A stretch of DNA of 39,832 nt. Origin: an uncultured bacterium. GTDB taxonomy: Bacteria; Krumholzibacteriota; Krumholzibacteriia; LZORAL124-64-63. Below are positions 62 through 11,744 of the stretch, in pieces. The position numbers and the translations under genes were made by a program. Position 1 is the first letter of the stretch. The number at the start of each line of letters is the position of its first letter. The DNA is taken from the NCBI GenBank assembly GCA_903912525.1, contig CAIWHK010000045.1, forward strand, positions 1 through 39,832, in the 5' to 3' direction. The notes beneath the pieces were generated by a model. The model was not told where the DNA came from and did not search any database. It saw nothing but the letters and a program-made list of their open reading frames with translations.

Positions 62-2671
62 CTACTTGACGAGCGTCATCCGCCCCGATCCCATGAACCC
101 GGCCGTCGAGAGCCTGTAGAAGTAGGCGCCGGACGCGGAAGCGCGCCCTGCGTCGTCGCGCCCATCCCAGGTCACGGCGTGCGGACCGGCGGCCTGCGCG
201 CCGTCGAGCAGCGTGCGGACCAGGCGGCCATCGACCGTGTAGATCGACAGCGTCGCCTGCCCGGCCGTGCCGAGCGTGAAGGCGATCGTCGTCGACGGGT
301 TGAACGGGTTGGGGTACGCCGCGCCGAGCGCCGTCATGGCCGCGGGCACCTCGCCGGGCACGCCGCTGACGACCGGCGCCTGGCCCTCGGTCACCTCGAG
401 GGTGATGTCCGCGGGCTTCGGCGTGACGACCTGGTGCAGGCCGCTCGGCCAGTAGATGTCGATCTGGTCGACGCCCGCGGCCGCGCCCAGGCCGAAGTGC
501 TGCTCGAGCACCGCGCCCAGTCCGCCGCCGCTGGTCAGCAGGCGCGACTGTGCGACGCCGCCGGTCGTGAGCACCACGCGGGCGCCGATGGCGCTCGTGT
601 TGGCCCCGCCGCCGGTCAGGCGCAGCTTGAACCAGTGGTTGGTCGTCACCAGGCCGTTGGTCAGCACCACGTTGGGCAGCGCCGTGCGCGGGATGAAGAG
701 GTCGACGCGGCCGTCGCCGTCCAGGTCGCCGGCGGCGATACCGTTGCTGCCGGCCACGGTCTCGTCGATGCCCGCCTGCACGCGCGTGAAGCCGCCCGCG
801 CCGTCGCCCAGCAGGACCAGGTCCGGCTCGTTGTAGCGGGGCACGTACAGGTCCAGCCTGCCGTCGTTGTCGAGGTCGGCCCAGGAGACGCCGCGCGCAT
901 GGCCGGCATCGCCCAGGTTCGGTCCCGTGACGAGTTCGAAATGGAAGGGTGAGATGCAGCGGTACAGCTTGTCGGCGCCGCCGTCGATGGCGATGTAGAG
1001 ATCGAAGTCGCCGTCGTTGTCGAAATCGCCCCAGGCGGCGCCCGCGTCGCTGCCGGTGTCGGACAGGCCGCTGCTGGGCGTCATCTCGTTGAACCCGATG
1101 GACAGGTTCTGGAACAGCTGGTTGGTGCCGTAACGCCGGATGACGTACGGGTCCAGGCGGCCGTCGAGGTCGCCGTCGGTCCACGAGCAGGCGCTCGTGT
1201 TGCCCGTCGTGGAGATGGCCGACGGCTGGGCCGAGAACAGCCACATGCCGCCGCCGATGTCGCCGAGGCTCGTCAGCAGCGAGTTGGACGTCGAGGCCGT
1301 GTTGTTCTGGAACACGTACAGGTCCAGCTTGCCGTCGAGGTTGTAGTCAACCCAGTTGGCGCCCTCGACCGGGCCGACGATGCCCGCGCCGTACGCGGTG
1401 ATCGCCGTGAAGCCGCCGGCGCCGTCGCCGCGCAGCAGCAGGTTCGCCTGGTTCGCGCGCGTCACGTAGACGTCCAGGTGCCCGTCGCCGTTGATGTCGG
1501 CCCACGCTGCGCCAGTGCCCGCGCCGGTGTCGGCCAACAGGCCGCTCGCGACGTTCGTGAACCCGGAGGCGCCGTCGTTGCGCAGCAGGAGGTCGGCCTC
1601 GTTGTTGCGGACGACGTGCACGTCGAGGTCGCCGTCCTCGTCGAAGTCGACCAGTGCGCCGGCGCGGCTCTGGCCCGCGACGGCCAGGCCGCCGGCGGTC
1701 TGCGCCGTGAATGGGCCGCCGGTGTAGGTGCCGCTGAACATGGCGTTGCCGTGCAGCGGGATCGTGACGACCTGCGGCGCGGCCGGGCCCGTCCAGTAGG
1801 GCGTCGGGTCCCAGGTCACGGTGTACTGGCCGGCGTCGAACAGCTGCAGGACGGCGTCGCCGCTGCCTGTGCGCGTTTCGAACGGTCCGACCATGTGCCA
1901 CGTCGCCGCCACGCCGTTCGGCTCGCAGTCCATGGTCACGGTGGCCTCGTACGCGGGGGTGGCCTTGATGGCCTGCAGCATCGCCTTCGTCGTGTTGTTC
2001 TGGACGAACATGATGAGGCTGAGCTGGCTGGTGCTCCAGGCCGGGTCCAGCGTGAAGGTGCGCGTGACCTGCTGCGACTGGCCGCTCGACACCGGCGTGA
2101 ACACCTCGGAGGCGAGCGTCGACATCACCAGGTTCGGATGGCCGTGGTAGCCGTCCAGGCAGACCAGGAACTGGACCGTGTTGCCGGCCGCGACCGCTGC
2201 GGTGAGCGACGCGTCGAGCGTGATCGTCACCTGGTCGCCGCGGATCTTGTAGGAAGCGGCCATCTGCACGGGGCTGCTGACCGTGCGCCGGGCCGCGACC
2301 GTCGGCTGGTACGTCGAGTACATGCTGCCGCTGGCGGCGCCGCCGACGTAGGGAGAGACGCCGTCGAAAATCACCGACGGCGTGCCGCTGAAGCCGTAGC
2401 TGCTGAAGCGCGCGCTGCCGAGCGGCGTCGTGTAGGGGTTGGTCAGGTAGTACGTCACGCCCAGGAAACCCGAAGTGCCGTACGTCGTCGTCAGATCATT
2501 GAATCCCGCGACCGCGGAAGGGCAGTAGGGTCAGCCATCGGCCGACCAGAGTTCACCGATGACGGTGCGGTCGGCGCAGTAGGCGAAGTTGGCGGTGCCC
2601 AGGGCGATCAACATGGCGAGCGTGGCGAGCAGGCCGGCGATGCGCGCGCGGCGGCAGGCAGGGGACGTCAT
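62..2671 (-). CDS. Candidate selenoprotein: exported Trx-like (Omp28-type) / FG-GAP / ASPIC-UnbV / FlgD-Ig protein with in-frame UGA
   Basis: 869 residues if the TGA at 2531-2533 (codon 47) is read as selenocysteine. The start at 2671 has a strong SD (AAGGAG, 9 nt away) and a clear signal peptide (basic Arg7-Arg10, hydrophobic 11-30, cleavage near residue 33). The mature start contains GELWSADG-U-P-Y-C-P, the place where Omp28-like and other thioredoxin-fold proteins have a CxxC motif, and a cis-Pro loop (GTPS) follows near residue 98. Next come a beta-rich region, FG-GAP/VCBS repeats with Asp-rich calcium loops (about 330-680), an ASPIC/UnbV domain (about 690-765) and a FlgD-like Ig domain starting YPNPFNP (784-869), probably a cell-surface sorting tail. 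A conventional call would begin at GTG 2458, which has no SD and cuts the Trx fold. The redox role is inferred. Alternatives are a nonsense mutation or a sequencing error at a Cys codon. Confidence 0.75.
2504..2533 (-). promoter_or_regulatory. Candidate bacterial SECIS element (UGA plus downstream hairpin)
   Basis: In the mRNA the UGA (2533-2531) is followed by 17 nt and then a GGUC apical loop (2513-2510). The loop is closed by a 6-bp stem, UUCCGC (2519-2514) with GCGGGA (2509-2504), including one U-G pair. As I recall the bacterial rule, an apical loop with an early G lies about 16-37 nt after the UGA on a stem of at least 4 bp; E. coli fdhF has GGUC in its loop at similar spacing. The element lies wholly within coding sequence, as expected for bacterial SECIS. 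Confidence 0.6.
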
Positions 2672-2744
2672 GATTCGGGACTCCTTGCTGAGGCGTCGTG
2701 ATCGGCGGGCCTTTCAGCCAAGGCCCACGGAGTTGCCGGTCATT

Positions 2745-2857: not shown

Positions 2858-3139
2858 CTACTGGGCGCCGACCAGCTCGGCCGCCACCAGCTGCGAGGCG
2901 AACTCGCAGAGGTCCTTTGCGGCGGCGTCGAGGGTGACGTCGTATTCGCTGACGATGGCCTCGGCGACCTGCCGCAGCGTGCGCTGCCCGTCCAGCTGCC
3001 GCCAGACGAACGCGCCGAGTTCCTCGAGCGTGTGCGTGGCCGTGCCCGTGGGGGCCATGATGATGAGCCCGTCGCCGATCTCCCGCACGGGGCAGGCGGC
3101 GTTCGGGACCAGGATCGTGTCGAGGTTGATGGACTTCAC
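2858..3139 (-). CDS. PqqD family protein (RRE-type peptide-binding fold)
   Basis: 93 residues from a GTG preceded by GAGGTGA at good spacing; an upstream GTG at 3166 is in frame but lacks an SD. The layout matches stand-alone PqqD: an N-terminal beta hairpin (VREIGDGLIIMAP), then a winged-helix part with the family pattern A-F-V-W-R-Q-L-D-G, R-T-L-R-Q-V and a final helix containing ASQLVAAELV. PqqD-fold proteins bind leader peptides of ribosomally made peptides for their modifying enzymes. The gene starts 31 bp after the HPr-kinase-like gene on the same strand, so the two are probably co-transcribed. Its peptide partner is not visible here. The family call is firm; a role in peptide modification is inferred from the neighbours. 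Confidence 0.8.
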   Translation of the reverse strand: MKSINLDTILVPNAACPVREIGDGLIIMAPTGTATHTLEELGAFVWRQLDGQRTLRQVAEAIVSEYDVTLDAAAKDLCEFASQLVAAELVGAQ

Positions 3140-3169
3140 GGCGTCACCTCGCGCGTGCAACGGCACGGT

Positions 3170-4072
3170 TCAGGACAGTGGCGGCAATCCGAAAGCGCCT
3201 TCCAGAGTCTTCCAGAATCCCGGATCGGGCGTAAACCGCAATACCTTGAGTGTTGTGTTGGCCGCGATCGCCTGCGCGGCGTCGACCATCCGGGGCAGCG
3301 TATCGGGCCCCGGGATCTCGTCCAGGCCCACCGGCGGCACGATCTCGCCGGCCAGGACGGCCACCGCGGCGGACTCTGGCGCATCGCCAAGTTCATGGGC
3401 CGGGCCATGTTCCAGCAGCAGGACAGCGCGCAGGGGAGCACTGCCGGGCCGCTTCTCGCGGAACGTGCCGTTGAACGGAGTGCCGACCAGCTCCCAGCCC
3501 CCGGCTCCACCAGCCAGAGGCCGCACCAGGCTCATCTCGTCGCCCAGCACGTGCCGGCCCGGGCTGTTGGCCGCCACGGTCGACTTGCCCGAGCCCGAGG
3601 GCCCCACGAACAGGAATCCCTGTCCGTCGACGATAACGGAAGACGAGTGCACCAGCCACGCCGGGCGCCCCATCCGCGCGCGCGCCGAGATGTGCGCCTG
3701 GTACAACACCTGTTCGAAGATGCGCGTCAACCGCCCGGTCAGCAGCGCGGCCTTCACGCGCACCTCGCCGCGGCCGGTCAACGGGTCGAACCGCCCGGTG
3801 ATGAGCCCGTCCGAAATATCGAAGGCGCCGTCACCGAGCAGGCGCTTGGTCGTCAGCAGCGAGCGCGGGAACGAAGGCTGGTCGTCGTGCGCGATCACGG
3901 TGATTTCCAGGGAGATGACCGGCTCGCCGGCGCCCGCCGGCACGCTCGGGCGGTCGAACCACATGGCCAATCCCTCGGCCAGGCCGGGCTGAGGGCAGCG
4001 CAGGGCGAAGAGGGCGTCACCGACTTCCAGGCGGTACTCCGGCACGGGCGAAGACAGCGGCGATGCGGTCAT
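3170..4072 (-). CDS. HPr kinase/phosphorylase-like ATPase (HprK-related kinase)
   Basis: 300 residues. A Walker A loop, GPSGSGKST, lies at about 157-165, followed by LGDEMSL at about 177-183, where HprK has its acidic catalytic segment. The N-terminal 130 residues are unlike the HprK regulatory domain. Members of this group occur next to PqqD and nucleotidyltransferase genes; some (ThcoK type, paeninodin clusters) phosphorylate lasso peptides. ATG 4072 was chosen because it follows the upstream gene's stop by 4 bp and has an SD-like CGGAG. The frame is open upstream to 4276, but that part overlaps the peptidase gene. The substrate is unknown. Confidence 0.75.
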   Translation of the reverse strand: MTASPLSSPVPEYRLEVGDALFALRCPQPGLAEGLAMWFDRPSVPAGAGEPVISLEITVIAHDDQPSFPRSLLTTKRLLGDGAFDISDGLITGRFDPLTGRGEVRVKAALLTGRLTRIFEQVLYQAHISARARMGRPAWLVHSSSVIVDGQGFLFVGPSGSGKSTVAANSPGRHVLGDEMSLVRPLAGGAGGWELVGTPFNGTFREKRPGSAPLRAVLLLEHGPAHELGDAPESAAVAVLAGEIVPPVGLDEIPGPDTLPRMVDAAQAIAANTTLKVLRFTPDPGFWKTLEGAFGLPPLS

Positions 4073-4604: not shown

Positions 4605-4764
4605 GGCCCCGTGATTGCAATTGTGGGAAGCCCGGGCACACGCCGGGTGGCCGGACAGCGAAGTTGCGCATCCCCTTCGCGCCGGCAAATGTTAACACAA
4701 CCGGCGGCGACGGCACCTTCTTTGGCATAGTGTGGGACGCGCAGGCACTAACGAGGTCGGCTCG

Positions 4765-5922
4765 ATGGCTCGCTCGCTTGAACAGCAATACCTGATCGAT
4801 CTGTCCCACGCCTGGGCAAAAGGTGCCGCCGGCCCGGTGCCGGCGCCGCCGGGGATCGACCCCGTCGCCGTCCGGTCGATGCTCGAGGCGCACAACGTCG
4901 AGGTGATCCTCGGCGCGCTGCTGCCCGAGGCGTTCAAGGACGAGGCGTTCAACCGCCAGGTCGAGGCCTCGCGGGGCCGTTCGATCGATCTGCTTCTGGA
5001 GTGCGAACGCATCCTGCCGCTGATCGGCCGCCACGCCGAGCGCCCCGTGCTGCTGAAGGGCGCCGCCCTGGCGCTGCGCTCTTACCGCGAGCCCGGCCAG
5101 CGCTGGTTCATGGACCTGGACCTGCTGGTGCCGCGGGCCGCCGTCCGGGCCGCCTGTCAGGAGCTCGAGACCGCCGGCTACCGCCCCCTGCCGGGCGGGC
5201 GCGACCCGAAGTTCTACGAGAAGTACCACCTGCACCGGGTCCTGCTGGGCCCGGCCGGCGCCTGTGTCGAGCTGCACTGGGACCTGACGGTGCCCGGCTC
5301 GGTCTACCATCTGTCGCCAACCGGGGTGATCGCCCGCGCCAAGCCCGACCGGTTGGGGCGCCAGCCGGTGTGGCGCCCGTGCCCGGTCGACCAGATCCTG
5401 CACGCGACCTACCAGAACATCGCCGACGGCTACCTGGACCTGCGTCGGGTGCTGGACCTGGCCCTGCTGGCGCCGACCCTGAGCCCGGCCGAGGGCATCA
5501 TGCTGGTGGATCTGGCCCGCCGGACCGGCCTGGCCCGCAGTCTGGCCTTGTCACTTCATCTGATGAAGCATGTCACCGGCGTCCAGACCGAGTGGATGGA
5601 CGACCTGGATCATGACCTGGGCCCGGCCGCGCACCGCCTGATCCGGGGCCTGGATGTGGTCGGCGGCTGCCTGGAGCGGCGGGCCCGTGACGTCCCCGGG
5701 TACACCGCCCTGCTGCACCTGTTGACCACACCCCGCGATACCCTGCGCCTGCGGGAAGTCTGCCGCCTGCTGTGGGTGGGCGAGCAGATCCTGCTCGAGA
5801 TGGGGTACCGCGCCGGGGCCCTGCCGGGCGCCGTGGTGCGCTCGCGCGTGGTGGCCGGCCAGGCCAAACTGCTGGCCCGCGTGGGCGGGTTGGCCGTGCG
5901 CGCGATGGCTTCCGCACGCTAA
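4765..5922 (+). CDS. Nucleotidyltransferase family protein (NTP_transf_5 type)
   Basis: 385 residues. LLKGAAL (96-102), DLDLLV (117-122), GYR and the later ELHWDL are the signature blocks of the NTP_transf_5 (PF14907) group, a polymerase-beta-like fold with the D-x-D of the metal site. The C-terminal half is helical. Such genes sit with HPr-kinase-like and PqqD genes in peptide or exopolysaccharide clusters; the modified target is not known. ATG 4765 is preceded by GAGG at 8-9 nt; an upstream GTG at 4732 lacks an SD. The gene is divergent from the peptidase gene across a 160-bp promoter region and carries an internal copy of the CTTCAT-N3-ATGAAG motif. Confidence 0.75.
   Translation: MARSLEQQYLIDLSHAWAKGAAGPVPAPPGIDPVAVRSMLEAHNVEVILGALLPEAFKDEAFNRQVEASRGRSIDLLLECERILPLIGRHAERPVLLKGAALALRSYREPGQRWFMDLDLLVPRAAVRAACQELETAGYRPLPGGRDPKFYEKYHLHRVLLGPAGACVELHWDLTVPGSVYHLSPTGVIARAKPDRLGRQPVWRPCPVDQILHATYQNIADGYLDLRRVLDLALLAPTLSPAEGIMLVDLARRTGLARSLALSLHLMKHVTGVQTEWMDDLDHDLGPAAHRLIRGLDVVGGCLERRARDVPGYTALLHLLTTPRDTLRLREVCRLLWVGEQILLEMGYRAGALPGAVVRSRVVAGQAKLLARVGGLAVRAMASAR
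5554..5568. promoter_or_regulatory. Operator-like dyad, distal copy
   Basis: CTTCAT-ctg-ATGAAG, a perfect 6+3+6 inverted repeat, lies inside the nucleotidyltransferase coding region about 390-470 bp upstream of two further copies. It could be an auxiliary site for DNA looping. The codons there (S-L-H-L-M-K) are ordinary, so a chance match is possible. Confidence 0.4.
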
Positions 5923-6034: not shown

Positions 6035-6412
6035 GCAAGCGAAGTGGACGATCACCTGGGCATCCCCGCCCGCCTGGCCATCGTGGCCACGCTGGCGCAA
6101 GGGCAGCGCCTGACGTTCACCGGGTTGCGCGAGCAGACCGGGCTTGCCGACGGGAATCTCCACGTACAGACCCGGAAGCTGGAAGCGGCCGGATACCTGA
6201 CAGGCGAACGCGTTCAGCTTGGGGGCCGCTCGGTAACCAGGTTCGAACTGACGGAGCGGGGACGCCTGGCCTTCGTGGAGTTGATCCGGCGCCTGCGCGA
6301 AGCAGCTGAAGGTCCGTTCGGCTCCGGCCGGCCGGGCGCGGCTGTAGGCGCCGGATCGGGCGCGGCGGCCGGGATGCCGCCGCGCCCGGGTGACCCTTCG
6401 CGGGTGTGGTAA
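6029..6412 (+). CDS. Winged-helix transcriptional regulator (HTH_34/MarR-like), likely regulator of the BMC operon
   Basis: 127 residues from ATG 6029. The pattern [42 protein letters not shown] and a wing ending in [12 protein letters not shown] is that of small DNA-binding winged-helix proteins (PF13601 type). There is no effector domain; the tail is Gly/Ala-rich. ATG 6029 lies within an operator dyad and has no SD. GTG 6044 has GAAGG 8 nt upstream and may be the true start, which would leave the operator outside the gene. The stop TAA runs into the SD of the rpiB-deoC gene, so the regulator is the first gene of the microcompartment operon. The three matching dyads suggest self-control. Confidence 0.8.
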
Positions 6413-6425
6413 GGAGAGGGAGCGC

Positions 6426-7793
6426 ATGAAGATCGCCATCGGGGCGGACCACGGCGGGTTCGAACTGAAGCAGAAGCTGGTCGAGCACCTGCGCGGCAAG
6501 GGCTTTGATGTGCGCGACGTGGGCACGGACTCGACCGCGGCGGTCGACTACCCCGTGTTCGCGCGCCGCGTGGCCGACGCCGTCGCCGCCGGGCAGGCCG
6601 ACCGCGGCATCATGATCGACGGCGCGGGCATCGGCTCGTCGATGGTGGCCAACAAGGTGCCGGGCGTGCGCGCGGCCATGGCCTACGACGTCTCGAGCGC
6701 CCGCAACGGCCGCGAGCACAACGACGCCAACCTGCTGACCCTCGGCGCGGGCCTGATCGGCGCCGCGCTGGCCGCGCAGATCGTCGACGTCTTCCTGGGC
6801 ACCGACTGCACCGAGGCGCGGCACCAGCGCCGCGTGGCGATGATCAACGACACCGCCGGCGCGGCGACCGTGGCCGCGGGCGGCATTCCGATGGCGGGCC
6901 TGTCGATGGCGGGCCTGTCGGACACCGACATGGCGCGCGTGCTGCAGAAGCTGGAGGGCCTGCTCGGCAGCCAGCACGCGGGCGGCCACCAGGGCTACAC
7001 GCGCGACGTCTTCCACGGCGGGCCCTGCGTGGGCTCGTGCCCCGACACGGCGCGCCGCTTCATCGAACTGGGCGCCCACCGCTTCACCGCCGGCCCGGAC
7101 AGCCCCGGCCGCATCCCCGACGAGCTGGCCCGCTACATCGACCACACCATCCTGAAGCCCGACGCCACGCCCGCGATGGTCGACAAGGTCATCGCCGAGG
7201 CGCGCGAGTTCAGTTTCCGCTCGGTGTGCGTGAACCCGTGCTGGGTCAAGCGCGTGGCCGACGGCCTGCGCGGCACGCGCGTGCTCACCTGCTCGGTGGT
7301 CGGCTTCCCGCTGGGCACCAGCATGCCCGAGATCAAGGGGATGGAGGCGCGCAAGGCCATCCGCGACGGCGCGAAGGAAATCGACATGGTCATCAACGTC
7401 GGTCGTTTGAAGGCCGGCGACGACGACTTCGTGCTGAAGGACATCCTGGCCGTCACCGAGGCCTGCCGCGACGGCGGCGCCGTCAGCAAGGTGATCCTCG
7501 AGACCGCCCTGCTGACCAATGAAGAGAAGGTGCGCGCCTGCGAGCTGTCGAAGAAGGCGCGCGCGAATTTCGTGAAGACCTCGACGGGGTTCGCCTCGGG
7601 CGGGGCCACTGCCGAGGATGTGGCGCTCATGGCGTCGGTCGTGCGCGGCGCAGGGATGGAAGTCAAGGCGTCCGGCGGCATCCGCTCGTTCGACGACGCC
7701 CGGAAGATGATCGAGGCGGGCGCCACCCGGTTGGGCGCCAGCGCCAGTATCGCCATCGTACAGGAAGCCCAGAAGTCGGGCGGAAAGTCCTAA
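6426..7793 (+). CDS. RpiB-DeoC fusion: sugar-phosphate isomerase and deoxyribose-phosphate aldolase
   Basis: 455 residues from ATG 6426 with SD AAGGAG. Residues 1-140 are RpiB/LacAB-like: ADHGG (7-11), DGAGIGSS (65-72), HNDAN (99-103). The usual catalytic Cys (CGTG in E. coli RpiB) is Asp65 here, so the isomerase chemistry or substrate may differ. Residues 237-450 are DeoC, class I aldolase: Asp320, Schiff-base Lys384 in NFVKTSTGF, and Lys414 in KASGGIR. DeoC cleaves 2-deoxyribose-5-phosphate to glyceraldehyde-3-phosphate and acetaldehyde. Between them, an Ala/Gly linker carries an amphipathic helix ([16 protein letters not shown], 166-181) resembling an encapsulation peptide. These are the signature enzymes of SPU-type microcompartments. 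Confidence 0.92.
6891..6920 (+). repeat. 15-bp perfect tandem duplication in the fusion linker
   Basis: ATGGCGGGCCTGTCG occurs twice head to tail (6891-6905 and 6906-6920), encoding [10 protein letters not shown] in the linker just before the putative encapsulation helix. It changes linker length without breaking the frame. Confidence 0.9.
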
Positions 7794-7802
7794 GGAGAGA
7801 AG

Positions 7803-8441
7803 ATGGCCGGTCACAATACCGTCGACCTGCGCGCCTACTGCGTGATCGACAGCCTGCAACCCCAGTTCGCCTCGTTCCAGGCGACGGTCGCGCAGGGGTT
7901 CCTGCCCAAGGTCGGGCAGGCCAGCCTGTTCGTGGAAATCGCGCCGGGCATCGAGATCAACCGCGTCACGGACATCGCGCTCAAATCCACGAACGTGACG
8001 CCGGGGATGCAGATCGTCGAACGCAACTTCGGCATGCTCGAGGTGCACTCGGACAGCCAGGCCGACGTGCGGCAGGCCGGCGCGGCGATCCTGGCGGCGC
8101 TCGAATTGACCGAGGACCAGCGGATGAAGCCGCGCATCATCTCGGACCAGGTGGTGCGCCACCTGGACGACCACCAGTGCATGCTCATCAACCGCATGCG
8201 GCACGGCAACCTGATCCTGGCCGGCCAGACGCTGTTCGTTTTGGAATGCGAGCCCGCGGCGTACGCGGCGCTGGCGGCGAACGAGGCCGAGAAGGCCGCG
8301 AACATCAACATCCTGGAGGTGCGCGCGTTCGGCGCCTTCGGTCGCGTGTATATCGGTGGGGAAGAGAAGGATATCGAGGCGGCGCGGCCGGCGGCGGTCG
8401 CGGCACTGGAATCGTTGACGGGACGGACGACCAGCCGGTAG
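7803..8441 (+). CDS. BMC-T trimeric microcompartment shell protein
   Basis: 212 residues; ATG 7803 is preceded by AAGGAGA right after the rpiB-deoC stop. Two tandem BMC folds are recognisable: the first around residues 8-100 (with GMLEVHSDSQADVRQAGAAI as its end), the second around 110-205 (HGNLILAGQTLFVLECEPAA through GAFGRVYIGGEEKDIEAA). BMC-T proteins trimerise into pseudohexameric shell tiles, often with large pores. This is the first of two BMC-T genes of the operon and is quite different in sequence from the second. No Fe-S cysteine motif is evident. Confidence 0.8.
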   Translation: MAGHNTVDLRAYCVIDSLQPQFASFQATVAQGFLPKVGQASLFVEIAPGIEINRVTDIALKSTNVTPGMQIVERNFGMLEVHSDSQADVRQAGAAILAALELTEDQRMKPRIISDQVVRHLDDHQCMLINRMRHGNLILAGQTLFVLECEPAAYAALAANEAEKAANINILEVRAFGAFGRVYIGGEEKDIEAARPAAVAALESLTGRTTSR

Positions 8442-8474
8442 CCCACGGGCGCCGGCACCAGAGGAGGAACGGAC

Positions 8475-8771
8475 ATGGCAGACGCATTGGGAATGATCGA
8501 GTGCAGGAGTTTCGCGGCGACGGTCGAGGCGGCCGACGCGATGGTCAAGGCCGCCCGCGTCGAGCTGGTGGGCTACGAGAAGACCGGCGGCGGCTACACG
8601 ACCGCCATCGTGCGCGGCGACGTCGCGGCCGTGAAGGCGGCCACCGATGCCGGCCAGAACGCGGCGACCCGCGTGGGTGAAGTGGTGGCCGTGCACGTGA
8701 TCGCGCGTCCGCACGCCAACGTCGACGCGGTGATCCCCCTGGGTCGCCTCGGTCGCCAGGGCGAGGCGTAG
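8475..8771 (+). CDS. BMC-H hexameric microcompartment shell protein
   Basis: 98 residues; SD GAGGAGG. A canonical single BMC domain: [20 protein letters not shown] at the start, [20 protein letters not shown] (pore loop KTGGGYTT) and [12 protein letters not shown], followed by the usual C-terminal strand and an HVIARPH tail. It is the only hexamer gene in the operon and would form most of the facets. It sits between a BMC-T gene and the first BMC-P gene. Confidence 0.95.
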
Positions 8772-8777
8772 GCCGCC

Positions 8778-9074
8778 ATGAACCTCGCGAAGGTCCTCGG
8801 CCGCGTGGTGGCCACGCGCAAGGAGGCGAGCCTGGACGGGCTGTCGCTGCTGATGCTCGGCATTGCCGGGCCCGACGGCAAGCTCACCGGAGGCAGCGTG
8901 GTGGCGGTCGATGCGATGGGCGCCGGCGAGGGCGAGTACGTGCTGTACGCGTCCGGCTCGTCGGCCCGCCAGACCGTGGTCACGGACAAGCGGCCGGTCG
9001 ACGCCGTGGTGATGGCGATCGTCGACAGCTGGGACATCGAGGGTGAAGAGAAGTACCGGAAGGGCGACGGCTGA
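8778..9074 (+). CDS. BMC-P pentameric shell vertex protein (EutN/CcmL family), copy 1
   Basis: 98 residues. [20 protein letters not shown] at the start, [27 protein letters not shown] and a final [12 protein letters not shown] are the hallmarks of EutN/CcmL proteins, which form pentamers closing the vertices of the shell. The gene is 6 bp after the BMC-H stop, and its TGA shares one base with the ATG of the aldehyde dehydrogenase gene, implying translational coupling. Confidence 0.93.
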
Positions 9075-10564
9075 TGAACCGGTTGTCCGATCAGCAGGTC
9101 GAGCAGATTGCCCGCGAGCTGGCGGGACGGCTGGGGAGAGGGACCTCGCCCACGCTGCCCGCCAGCTCGCCCTATGGCTCGGCTGGCGGAAGCGCGGCGC
9201 CGCTGCCGGTGTTCCCGGTGACGTCGCTGCCGGTGGGGGGCGACGGCGTGTTCGAGACCGTCGACCAGTGCGTGGCCGCGGCGCGGCGCGCGTTCAACGA
9301 GCTGGCGGGGATGTCCCTGTCCAAGCGCGAGGAGATCATCGCCGCGTACCGCGCGGCGATGCGGGAGCAGGGGGCTGACCTGGCGCGGCAGGCCTGGCAG
9401 GAAACGGGCCTCGGGCGCTATGAAGACAAGGTCATCAAGAACCGGCTGGTCACGGACAAGACACCGGGCACGGAAGCCCTGAAGCCGGACGCCACTTCGG
9501 GAGATCACGGACTGACGCTCACGGAGTGGGCCCCCTTCGGCGTCATCGGCGCCATCACGCCGACGACCAATCCCACCAGCACCGTCATCTGCAACACCAT
9601 CGGGATGGTGGCCGCGGGCAACGCGGTCGTGTTCAACGCGCACCCGTCGGCGCGGCGCTCGTCGCTGGCCACGGTCCGGGCGCTGAACGCGGCGGCCGCG
9701 TCGGTCGGCGCGCCGCCCAACCTGGTGACGGCCGTGGCGCAGCCCACCATCGAGTCGGCCACGCAGGTGATGACCCACAAGGGCATCAACCTGCTGGTGG
9801 TCACCGGCGGGCCGGGCGTGGTCAAGGCGGCGATGCAGTCGGGCAAGCGCGCGGTGTGCGCGGGCCCGGGCAACCCGCCGGCGGTGGTCGACGAGACGGC
9901 CGACCTGGCGAAGGCAGGGCGCGACATCGTGACGGGCGCCGGGTTCGACAACAACGTCATCTGCGTGGACGAGAAGCAGTGCTTCGTCACCGCGCCGGCG
10001 GCCGACAAGCTGCTCGAGTCGATGCGCGCGGCCAACGCGTACATCGCCACGCAGGCCGAGATGCGGCGGCTGGAGAAGCACATCTTCAGCGAGATCCGCG
10101 GGCCGCGGCAGCACGGCACCATCAACAAGGACCTCGTGGGCAAGAACCCAGAGGTGATCCTGGCCCTCATCGGCGTGAAGGTGGGCCCCGAGTGCCGGCT
10201 CATCGCCTGCGAAGTGGCCGAAGACCACCCGCTGGTCTGGAGCGAACAGTTGATGCCCGTGCTGCCGGTGGTGCGCGTGGGCAACGTGGCGCGCGCGATC
10301 GAACTGGCCAGGGAGAGCGAGCACGGCTTCGGCCACTCGGCCAGCATGCACTCGCGCGACATCGACGCGCTCAGCCGCATGGCGCGCGTGATCAACACCA
10401 GCATCTTCGTCAAGAACGCCCCCATCGTCGCGGGCCTCGGCGCCGGCGGCGAGGGTTTCACCAGCTTCACCATCGCCAGTCCCACCGGCGAGGGGCTGAC
10501 CACCGCCCGCAGTTTCTCGCGGCAGCGGCGGTGCGTGATGGTCGACCACTTCAGGATCGTGTAG
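9074..10564 (+). CDS. CoA-acylating aldehyde dehydrogenase (PduP/EutE-like), microcompartment core enzyme
   Basis: 496 residues. The N-terminus SDQQVEQIARELAGRLG (5-21) is an amphipathic helix followed by a Gly/Pro/Ser-rich linker, the layout of an encapsulation peptide. The catalytic core has the NPTST motif (ITPTTNPTST), VVTGGPGVVKAA in the cofactor region, and the nucleophile Cys297 in FDNNVICVDEK, matching FDNNLPC in PduP/EutE. It would oxidise the acetaldehyde made by DeoC to acetyl-CoA with NAD+. No alcohol dehydrogenase or PduL-type phosphotransacylase accompanies it, so regeneration of NAD+ and CoA must happen otherwise. Confidence 0.92.
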   Translation: MNRLSDQQVEQIARELAGRLGRGTSPTLPASSPYGSAGGSAAPLPVFPVTSLPVGGDGVFETVDQCVAAARRAFNELAGMSLSKREEIIAAYRAAMREQGADLARQAWQETGLGRYEDKVIKNRLVTDKTPGTEALKPDATSGDHGLTLTEWAPFGVIGAITPTTNPTSTVICNTIGMVAAGNAVVFNAHPSARRSSLATVRALNAAAASVGAPPNLVTAVAQPTIESATQVMTHKGINLLVVTGGPGVVKAAMQSGKRAVCAGPGNPPAVVDETADLAKAGRDIVTGAGFDNNVICVDEKQCFVTAPAADKLLESMRAANAYIATQAEMRRLEKHIFSEIRGPRQHGTINKDLVGKNPEVILALIGVKVGPECRLIACEVAEDHPLVWSEQLMPVLPVVRVGNVARAIELARESEHGFGHSASMHSRDIDALSRMARVINTSIFVKNAPIVAGLGAGGEGFTSFTIASPTGEGLTTARSFSRQRRCVMVDHFRIV

Positions 10565-10570
10565 GCACCC

Positions 10571-11203
10571 ATGCGCCAGGCCCTGGCATTGCTCGAATTC
10601 GGTGGCGCGGCGGCCGGCATCCTGGCCGTCGACCGCATGCTGAAGAAATCGCCGGTGGCGCTGCTTCGCTGCGGCACCGTGCACCCGGGGCGCTACCTGG
10701 CGCTGGTGGGCGGCACGGTGGCGGCGACCGAGGAGGCGCACGCAACCGGTGTCGCGAGCGGCTGCGAATGCACCCTGCTGGTGGACGAGGTCTGCCTGGC
10801 CGACCCGCATCCGCAGCTGAGCGCGGCGATCGACGGTGCACGTCGGGCTTGTGAAGGCGATGCGGTGTGCATCATCGAGGTGAGCACGTCGCCGGGCCTG
10901 TTGCGGGCCATCGACGCGGTGCTCAAGGCGGTGCCGGTCGAGCTGGTCGAGCTGCGCCTGGCCGACGACCTCGGCGGCCGCGCCCTGGCCGTGCTGGGCG
11001 GCGAGCTGCCCGACGTGCAAGTGGCGCTCGAACTGGCCCGCGCGGCGAAGGGCGCCGCGGCCGAATGGCTGGGCGGCACCCTGCTGCCGCGGCTGGACGA
11101 AACCCTGCGCGACGTCATCAACGGCGGCACGGCGTTCCGCGCCTGCGCAGCCGTCGAGCCGGCGGGCGCCGAGATCCTGATCGTCGAAGCGGGGGAGGGG
11201 TAG
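10571..11203 (+). CDS. BMC-T shell protein, PduT-like
   Basis: 210 residues with two BMC domains, about 3-95 (ALALLEFGGAAAGILAVDRM through PGRYLALVGGTVAA) and 98-185 (AVCIIEVSTSPGLLRAIDAV through GRALAVLGGELPDVQVALEL). Relatives of PduT carry a pore [4Fe-4S] cluster held by a Cys just before PGK. Here the corresponding stretch is CGTVHPGRY, with His directly before PGR and a Cys four residues earlier. Whether a metal is bound is open. The gene is 6 bp downstream of the dehydrogenase gene. Confidence 0.85.
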   Translation: MRQALALLEFGGAAAGILAVDRMLKKSPVALLRCGTVHPGRYLALVGGTVAATEEAHATGVASGCECTLLVDEVCLADPHPQLSAAIDGARRACEGDAVCIIEVSTSPGLLRAIDAVLKAVPVELVELRLADDLGGRALAVLGGELPDVQVALELARAAKGAAAEWLGGTLLPRLDETLRDVINGGTAFRACAAVEPAGAEILIVEAGEG

Positions 11204-11205
11204 CC

Positions 11206-11484
11206 GTGTTCCTGGGCCGGGTCATCGGCAGGCTGGTGGCGGCGACGATCACGCCGGGCATGGAGGGCATCCCCCTGCTCTGGGTGCAGCCGCTGGACAA
11301 GCACGCGCAGCCCGATGGGAAGGCGTTCGTCTGCGCCGACGGCACCCGCATGGCCGGCCCCGGCGAACTGGTCTACTGGGAGGCCAGCCGCGAGGCGGCC
11401 CTGACGCTGGAGCCCAGCTTCGTGCCGGTCGACCACGCGGTGGTCGGGCTGGTCAATGATTTGCAGATCGATGAGGCGCCATGA
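11206..11484 (+). CDS. BMC-P pentameric shell vertex protein (EutN/CcmL family), copy 2
   Basis: 92 residues from GTG 11206, 2 bp after the BMC-T stop and preceded by GGAGGGG. It starts MFLGRVIGRLVAATITPGMEG, and its middle (ADGTRMAGPGELVYWEASREAAL) and end (VDHAVVGLVNDL) fit the EutN/CcmL fold. It is more divergent than copy 1 at the central loop. Loci of this type often hold three pentamer genes, as here. Confidence 0.88.
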   Translation: MFLGRVIGRLVAATITPGMEGIPLLWVQPLDKHAQPDGKAFVCADGTRMAGPGELVYWEASREAALTLEPSFVPVDHAVVGLVNDLQIDEAP

Positions 11485-11744
11485 TCCTGGCCCGCGTCAC
11501 CGGCCGCATCACCTCGACCATCCACCACCAGGGGATGGACGGCCGCACGCTGCTGGTCCTGGACAAGCTGGGCCCCGACGGCCGGCCGGGCGGGGGCTAC
11601 CTGATCGCGGTCGATGCCACCGGGGCCGGCGCCGGCGAGATGGTGCTGGTCCTGGACGAGGGCAACGGCGCCCGCCAGATCCTCGGCGGCAAGGACCTGC
11701 CCATCCGGTCGCTGGTCGTGGGCATCGTCGACGACATCGGCTAG
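11481..11744 (+). CDS. BMC-P pentameric shell vertex protein (EutN/CcmL family), copy 3
   Basis: 87 residues; ATG overlaps the preceding stop (ATGA). ILARVTGRITSTIHHQGMDG, YLIAVDATGAGAGEMVLVLDEG and IRSLVVGIVDDIG give the complete EutN/CcmL pattern. Last gene of the operon. Confidence 0.93.
   Translation: MILARVTGRITSTIHHQGMDGRTLLVLDKLGPDGRPGGGYLIAVDATGAGAGEMVLVLDEGNGARQILGGKDLPIRSLVVGIVDDIG

Follow-up and report, generated by a model that had tools for sequence, protein, structure and literature searches.

Results

Organization of the locus

The window (the whole stretch of DNA that was analysed, 39,832 nucleotides) carries on its minus strand a reading frame of 869 codons plus a stop, running from 2671 to 62, in which the sole internal stop is a TGA at 2531-2533 and the terminal stop is a TAG at 62-64. 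The features of this frame and of its immediate neighbours are as follows.

3170..4051, minus strand: P-loop (GPSGSGKST) kinase-like protein, a conserved neighbour (from sequence and synteny)
2858..3166, minus strand: PqqD-like protein (PF05402), immediately upstream of the selenoprotein gene
2681..2686, minus strand: Shine-Dalgarno sequence AAGGAG, 5' of the ATG
62..2671, minus strand: complete predicted selenoprotein gene, 869 aa with Sec47 (ATG start, TAG stop, TGA translated as U)
2573..2671, minus strand: putative N-terminal signal peptide region, aa 1-33 (from hydrophobicity and position)
2285..2569, minus strand: thioredoxin-fold domain, aa 35-129 (AlphaFold model, Foldseek)
2531..2533, minus strand: predicted Sec-encoding UGA, codon 47, first position of UPYC
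2522-2524, minus strand: codon of the putative resolving Cys50, last position of UPYC
2504..2519, minus strand: SECIS-like hairpin of the bacterial type, UUCCGC-GGUC-GCGGGA, with its apical loop 17 nt 3' of the UGA
2378..2383, minus strand: Thr97-Pro98, cis-Pro-loop position of the thioredoxin fold, just before strand 99-102
1952..2275, minus strand: Omp28-like beta-sandwich domain, aa 133-240 (PF11551, model, Foldseek)
602..1699, minus strand: FG-GAP beta-propeller, aa about 325-690 (PF13517, FG-GAP_3, in 5 stretches over cut-off; model, Foldseek)
401..592, minus strand: UnbV/ASPIC domain, aa 694-757 (PF07593, over cut-off)
65..316, minus strand: FlgD-Ig / T9SS type A C-terminal sorting domain, aa 786-869 (PF13860, 48.4 bits against a cut-off of 27)

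The frame is exactly as the sequence-only reading had described it, with one in-frame TGA between a good start (AAGGAG, signal peptide) and a long continuation. The position assigned there to the TGA, at the first Cys of a CxxC site, also proved correct: the motif around codon 47 is ADG-U-PYC-PSAV, and the GTPS loop (aa 96-99) is encoded 3' of the TGA. With a mechanical ORF caller the gene begins at GTG 2458, as had been foreseen for standard callers, so that the active site would be lost from the called gene. Over the same stretch the remaining two minus-strand frames hold 21 and 3 stops and the DNA is GC-rich; the length of the open frame is therefore weak evidence, and it is conservation that decides.

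The PqqD-like gene adjoins the orthologous selenoprotein gene in 15 other loci, and together with the P-loop kinase-like gene, for which a Pfam search gave no match, it keeps its order beside the selenoprotein gene in most relatives. The pair resembles the kinase/PqqD pairs of peptide-modifying clusters. Beyond it lies a divergent NTP_transf_5 nucleotidyltransferase (4732-5922, plus strand), followed at 6390-11744 (plus strand) by a bacterial microcompartment locus with an RpiB/DeoC-like fusion, two BMC-domain shell proteins, an aldehyde dehydrogenase, and an EutN/CcmL vertex protein together with another that looks similar.

Domains and predicted structure

The thioredoxin-like, FG-GAP and FlgD-Ig domains named in the sequence-only reading were all confirmed by Pfam or by structure models. 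At the N-terminus the AlphaFold model has a hydrophobic helix (aa 4-26), and a hydrophobic N-terminus is conserved among the 29 orthologue sequences. When the 29 N-terminal domains were modelled (pLDDT 92.5), U47 was placed at the thioredoxin active site, just before helix 50-68. The order of elements in the model is strand 37-43, helix 50-68, strand 69-75, helix 83-91, Thr-Pro 97-98, strands 99-102 and 106-109, and helix 118-129, after which the beta-sandwich begins. The predicted structure, in which UxxC sits where helix 1 begins and a cis-Pro loop is present, has the layout of a thioredoxin-fold oxidoreductase; Pro98 is invariant and Thr97 nearly so across the 29 sequences. The Omp28 model PF11551 matches at E≤0.1 in 25 of the 29 members, and falls below the Pfam cut-off in the window protein. 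Foldseek gave HBP35 of Porphyromonas gingivalis as the best solved match to the N-terminal model, followed by the P. gingivalis Omp28 domain 2r2c. The full-length model (pLDDT 85.0) has CRTAC1 (PDB 9etn) as its best solved match (E=9e-25, about 500 columns). Loops of the DxDxDGxxD type, conserved in this propeller, are usually calcium sites. A paralogue of the propeller/ASPIC/FlgD_ig part (L002:1498-4914, minus strand) is 46% identical, and its different N-terminal half is Pfam-less and contains no UGA.

Conservation of the UGA codon

Homologues were sought in 80 genomes from the window's class; the query was the N-terminal stretch of 238 residues, with U replaced by C, and the search was repeated with a profile. 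The orthologous gene was found in 29 genomes (G000, that of the window, and 28 others), each copy with exactly one internal TGA, and all of these genomes belong to f1, the family of the window itself, where they make up 29 of 38 genomes (Krumholzibacteriia). Named relatives in the genome records are mostly "Candidatus Krumholzibacteriia/Krumholzibacteriota". The profile search of the 80 class genomes found no orthologue in G036, which is of the same genus as the window genome. In all 29 orthologues the TGA stands at the counterpart of codon 47, at identities as low as 37%, which upholds the earlier claim that its placement is beyond chance. In the orthologues the UGA comes about 46 codons after the start, which mostly has a Shine-Dalgarno-like sequence, and about 820 codons lie beyond it; 22 orthologues can be aligned over their full or nearly full length, at 43-84% identity to the window protein. 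Contamination or misassembly as the origin of the gene was considered and rejected, because the orthologues in the 28 other assemblies match it in length and often in neighbours.

Among all homologues the codon at this column is TGA or Cys (49 TGA, 6 TGC, 1 TGT) and not a random residue; the Cys codons belong to 7 remote homologues, and the column is U or C, never W. Judged from these codons, a Sec/Cys exchange that admits no third residue is the pattern expected of a selenoprotein.

A hairpin downstream of the UGA

A hairpin with a G-G/U loop lies exactly 17 nt after the UGA in 29 of 29 orthologues. In the same genes 22,130 further codons served as controls, and 1.2% of them have a hairpin of this type; at other alignment columns it occurs in at most 24% of the sequences. 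Stems are of 4-7 bp and loops of 4-5 nt (GGUC, CGUGC, AGUUA, AGUUC). Compensatory changes are found at the outer pair 15-30 (UA, CG, AU, GC) and at the inner pair 18-27 (CG, UA); on the aligned sequences, the covariation is modest but real. Synonymous conservation (539 testable columns, six-codon mean) peaks at codons 51-56, which is where the hairpin lies, and is there the highest of the whole gene. The bSECIS model, with its limit of MFE ≤ -7.5 kcal/mol, was taken from PMC13188914; in isolation the hairpin reaches -7.3 kcal/mol in the window and in most orthologues against the model's -7.5, and 6 of the 29 pass. RNAalifold favors a different weak pairing, which is unsupported (covariation term only -0.16), and the hairpin was therefore tested through counts of the named structure and position controls. 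An Rfam search of the UGA region returned a mir-937 match that is due to chance only, and the SECIS families of Rfam do not cover the region. After the homologous codon of the Cys homologues there is no hairpin of note.

Selenocysteine machinery and genetic code

The genome to which the window belongs has a size of 4.29 Mb, is 97.75% complete and contains selA, selB, selC and selD, the set of genes that the sequence-only reading had singled out for a check. SelA scores 448.6 bits (cut-off 268), SelB 318.6 (cut-off 242), SelD 352.7 (cut-off 125) and tRNA-Sec 67.5 (gathering threshold 47), the last with anticodon TCA according to ARAGORN. The SelD gene (L157, G000:C49:3567-4481) has an in-frame TGA of its own, i.e. 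SelD is itself a selenoprotein. Over the class, selA exceeds the cut-off in 77 of 80 genomes; G047 and G070, two genomes that carry the orthologous gene (90-92% complete), gave no selA match. An alternative genetic code was ruled out: TGA terminates 6 of the 23 predicted window genes and some of the orthologues themselves, hence the code is standard.

Sister clades

A second Sec clade, with W-U-x-Y-C-P around a TGA at the equivalent codon, comprises about 20 proteins that are shorter (some 670 aa). Its members (L068-L083, L088) have an Omp28-Trx head and a FlgD_ig tail and no propeller, and some genomes hold at least two copies. Their best hairpins lie mostly 32-33 nt from the UGA, versus 17 in the propeller clade. 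In a tree of the N-terminal domain the two Sec groups form separate, well-supported clades (SH-aLRT 98 and 99), the second of which has a single Cys row at its base. Since the SECIS of the sister clade is 15 nt further downstream, either a single gain of Sec was followed by a shift of the SECIS, or one site acquired Sec on two occasions; the deep branches of the tree are weak.

UxxC heads with a hairpin at 17-nt spacing were also seen in a tandem pair (L146:1968-3836 and L146:3986-5842) and in L145:3932-5800, where a BACON-like middle replaces the propeller and the tail is of the same kind. The joining of a UxxC head to a BACON-like module in L145/L146 points to the Sec head being a mobile module on surface-targeted proteins of this group. 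A Stahlbacteria contig (L150) encodes a short relative (245 aa) with TGA at the same position, which suggests Sec forms outside Krumholzibacteriia.

Predicted export

The C-terminal tail passes TIGR04183 (T9SS type A sorting) with 32.2 bits against 23, and stays below the cut-off of PF18962 (17.3 against 27). In the window's genome the T9SS component SprA is over its cut-off, PorU scores 465 bits against 420, and the tail recurs in over 100 additional copies. We infer that the protein is secreted and surface-targeted, with both tail and genome pointing to type IX secretion.

Discussion

The presented data make it highly probable that the UGA at codon 47 is read as selenocysteine and that the gene is a genuine selenoprotein gene, and this case is close to the best that sequence data can make. 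Those refuting conditions of the sequence-only reading that were put to the test did not apply. According to the mechanism that we propose, SelA and SelD would charge tRNA-Sec(UCA), and Sec would be inserted at codon 47 by SelB docked on the hairpin that closely follows the UGA; we propose this because the machinery is complete and the SECIS-like hairpin is conserved. The signal peptide would then export the protein, and the FlgD-Ig/type A tail would route it through type IX secretion to the cell surface or the medium, as suggested by the presence of SprA, PorU and an over-cut-off tail. Fold and motif indicate that Sec47-Pro-Tyr-Cys50 could act as a selenol/thiol pair on the thioredoxin fold, either in a thiol-disulfide oxidoreductase or in a peroxide-type reductase, and during oxidoreductase action the Sec47/Cys50 pair would form a selenenylsulfide. 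In the weakest and most speculative step, the FG-GAP/ASPIC propeller, which is of a metal-binding type, may dock a partner, a glycan or a substrate, may select the target, or may anchor the enzyme. A bolder reading is that Krumholzibacteriia possess lineage-wide, T9SS-exported surface selenoenzymes, in which a Sec-Cys site is combined with an integrin-like ASPIC propeller, and that in the sister clade the SECIS moved or Sec was gained twice. We assign it a probability of about 0.55. If it is true, selenium-based redox chemistry would act beyond the outer membrane, with extracellular molecules as its substrates.

Several other readings have to be weighed against this one. That a nonsense mutation or a sequencing error put a real or spurious stop into an ordinary CxxC gene has a negligible chance of being right, given that the same TGA, with a full-length continuation, recurs in 28 other independently assembled genomes, and that a hairpin and synonymous constraint lie immediately 3' of it. 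It is also very improbable that the UGA is read as some other residue (Trp, near-cognate Cys, a reassigned code), or that it is a regulated stop giving a 46-aa peptide and an internally started protein of 798 aa. The GTG at 2458 would offer the start for the latter. However, an internal start would drop U47 and half of the thioredoxin fold, and residues on both sides of the UGA are equally conserved; readthrough with another residue is at odds with the standard code, with the restriction of the column to U and C, and with the dedicated Sec machinery in the genome.

The remaining two readings accept selenocysteine. The protein could be merely a member of NF045500/GOS_C, with nothing new about it. 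NF045500 is indeed the best NCBIfam match in the N-terminal domain, where all 22 full orthologues match it with E down to 3e-19, and the family has the same UxxC and thioredoxin-like fold (PMC2398784). Yet its match to the window protein (aa 32-237, E=6e-9) amounts to 35.7 bits and does not reach the curated cut-off of 200, the second Sec clade and the Cys homologues match equally weakly or better, and the architecture of propeller plus ASPIC is not mentioned in the selenoprotein catalogue (PMC13188914); we therefore regard plain membership as unlikely. Less probable still is that Sec is real and the site serves another end than disulfide exchange, for instance the surface capture of metal or heme, or of selenium or electrophiles. 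HBP35, the nearest solved relative, also binds hemin (PMC2907840), but a confidently predicted thioredoxin fold in which a cis-Pro loop comes after the UxxC has the layout of an oxidoreductase.

The analysis adds a firmly supported and previously unlisted selenoprotein branch, truncated by standard annotation in every genome, from an uncultured class in which selA is nearly universal. Pointers to Sec chemistry and to type IX secretion come together in one protein, a combination found in no paper or catalogue searched: the literature search returned no relevant paper joining selenoproteins with type IX secretion, and nothing relevant on Omp28 with selenoprotein or on Krumholzibacteri with selenocysteine. 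This raises the question of what the substrate of an exposed selenol outside the cell would be, and of where its re-reduction would come from. Moreover, two sister Sec clades with unlike UGA-to-SECIS spacing constitute a natural test of how a SECIS originates or moves within coding sequence.

Comparison with known systems

The sequence-only reading had called the gene a probable new selenoprotein with an unfamiliar fusion. The fusion part of that claim stands, as the propeller fusion is absent from the catalogue, whereas the Sec domain has a remote relative in NF045500/GOS_C. The 2026 catalogue (PMC13188914) identifies NF045500, the "Omp28-related selenoprotein", with the hypothetical protein GOS_C, a set of 74 sequences with a thioredoxin-like fold and UxxC that Zhang and Gladyshev described from marine metagenomes in 2008 (PMC2398784). 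The window protein shares with it that fold and motif, an Omp28-type region following, Cys homologues and a bacterial SECIS after the UGA; it differs in its FG-GAP/ASPIC propeller, T9SS-type tail, UPYC consensus and Krumholzibacteriia clade. The profile match, remote and below threshold, makes the Sec domain a new, distant branch of the catalogued family. The clade is new, as are its combination with an ASPIC/FG-GAP propeller and a T9SS-type tail in one protein and, probably, the surface setting.

HBP35 (PDB 5y1a; Foldseek E=1.7e-10, TM 0.65, 14% identity) likewise has a signal peptide, a thioredoxin domain, a beta-sandwich and a T9SS C-terminal domain, but carries CxxC, with Cys where the window protein has Sec, and lacks a propeller. 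Its thioredoxin activity was measured and was lost on mutation of its two active-site cysteines, and it sits partly on the cell surface (PMC2907840); it is reported to be secreted by the Por system (PMC3120885). Omp28 of P. gingivalis (PF11551 / NF033782) is alike in the Omp28-type domain after the thioredoxin fold, with a sub-threshold match, and unlike in being a lipoprotein of the Cys form with no propeller. CRTAC1, of the ASPIC-type FG-GAP propeller kind, shares the propeller and the ASPIC domain at 21% identity to the window protein; it is, by contrast, an animal extracellular matrix protein with no thioredoxin or Sec domain.
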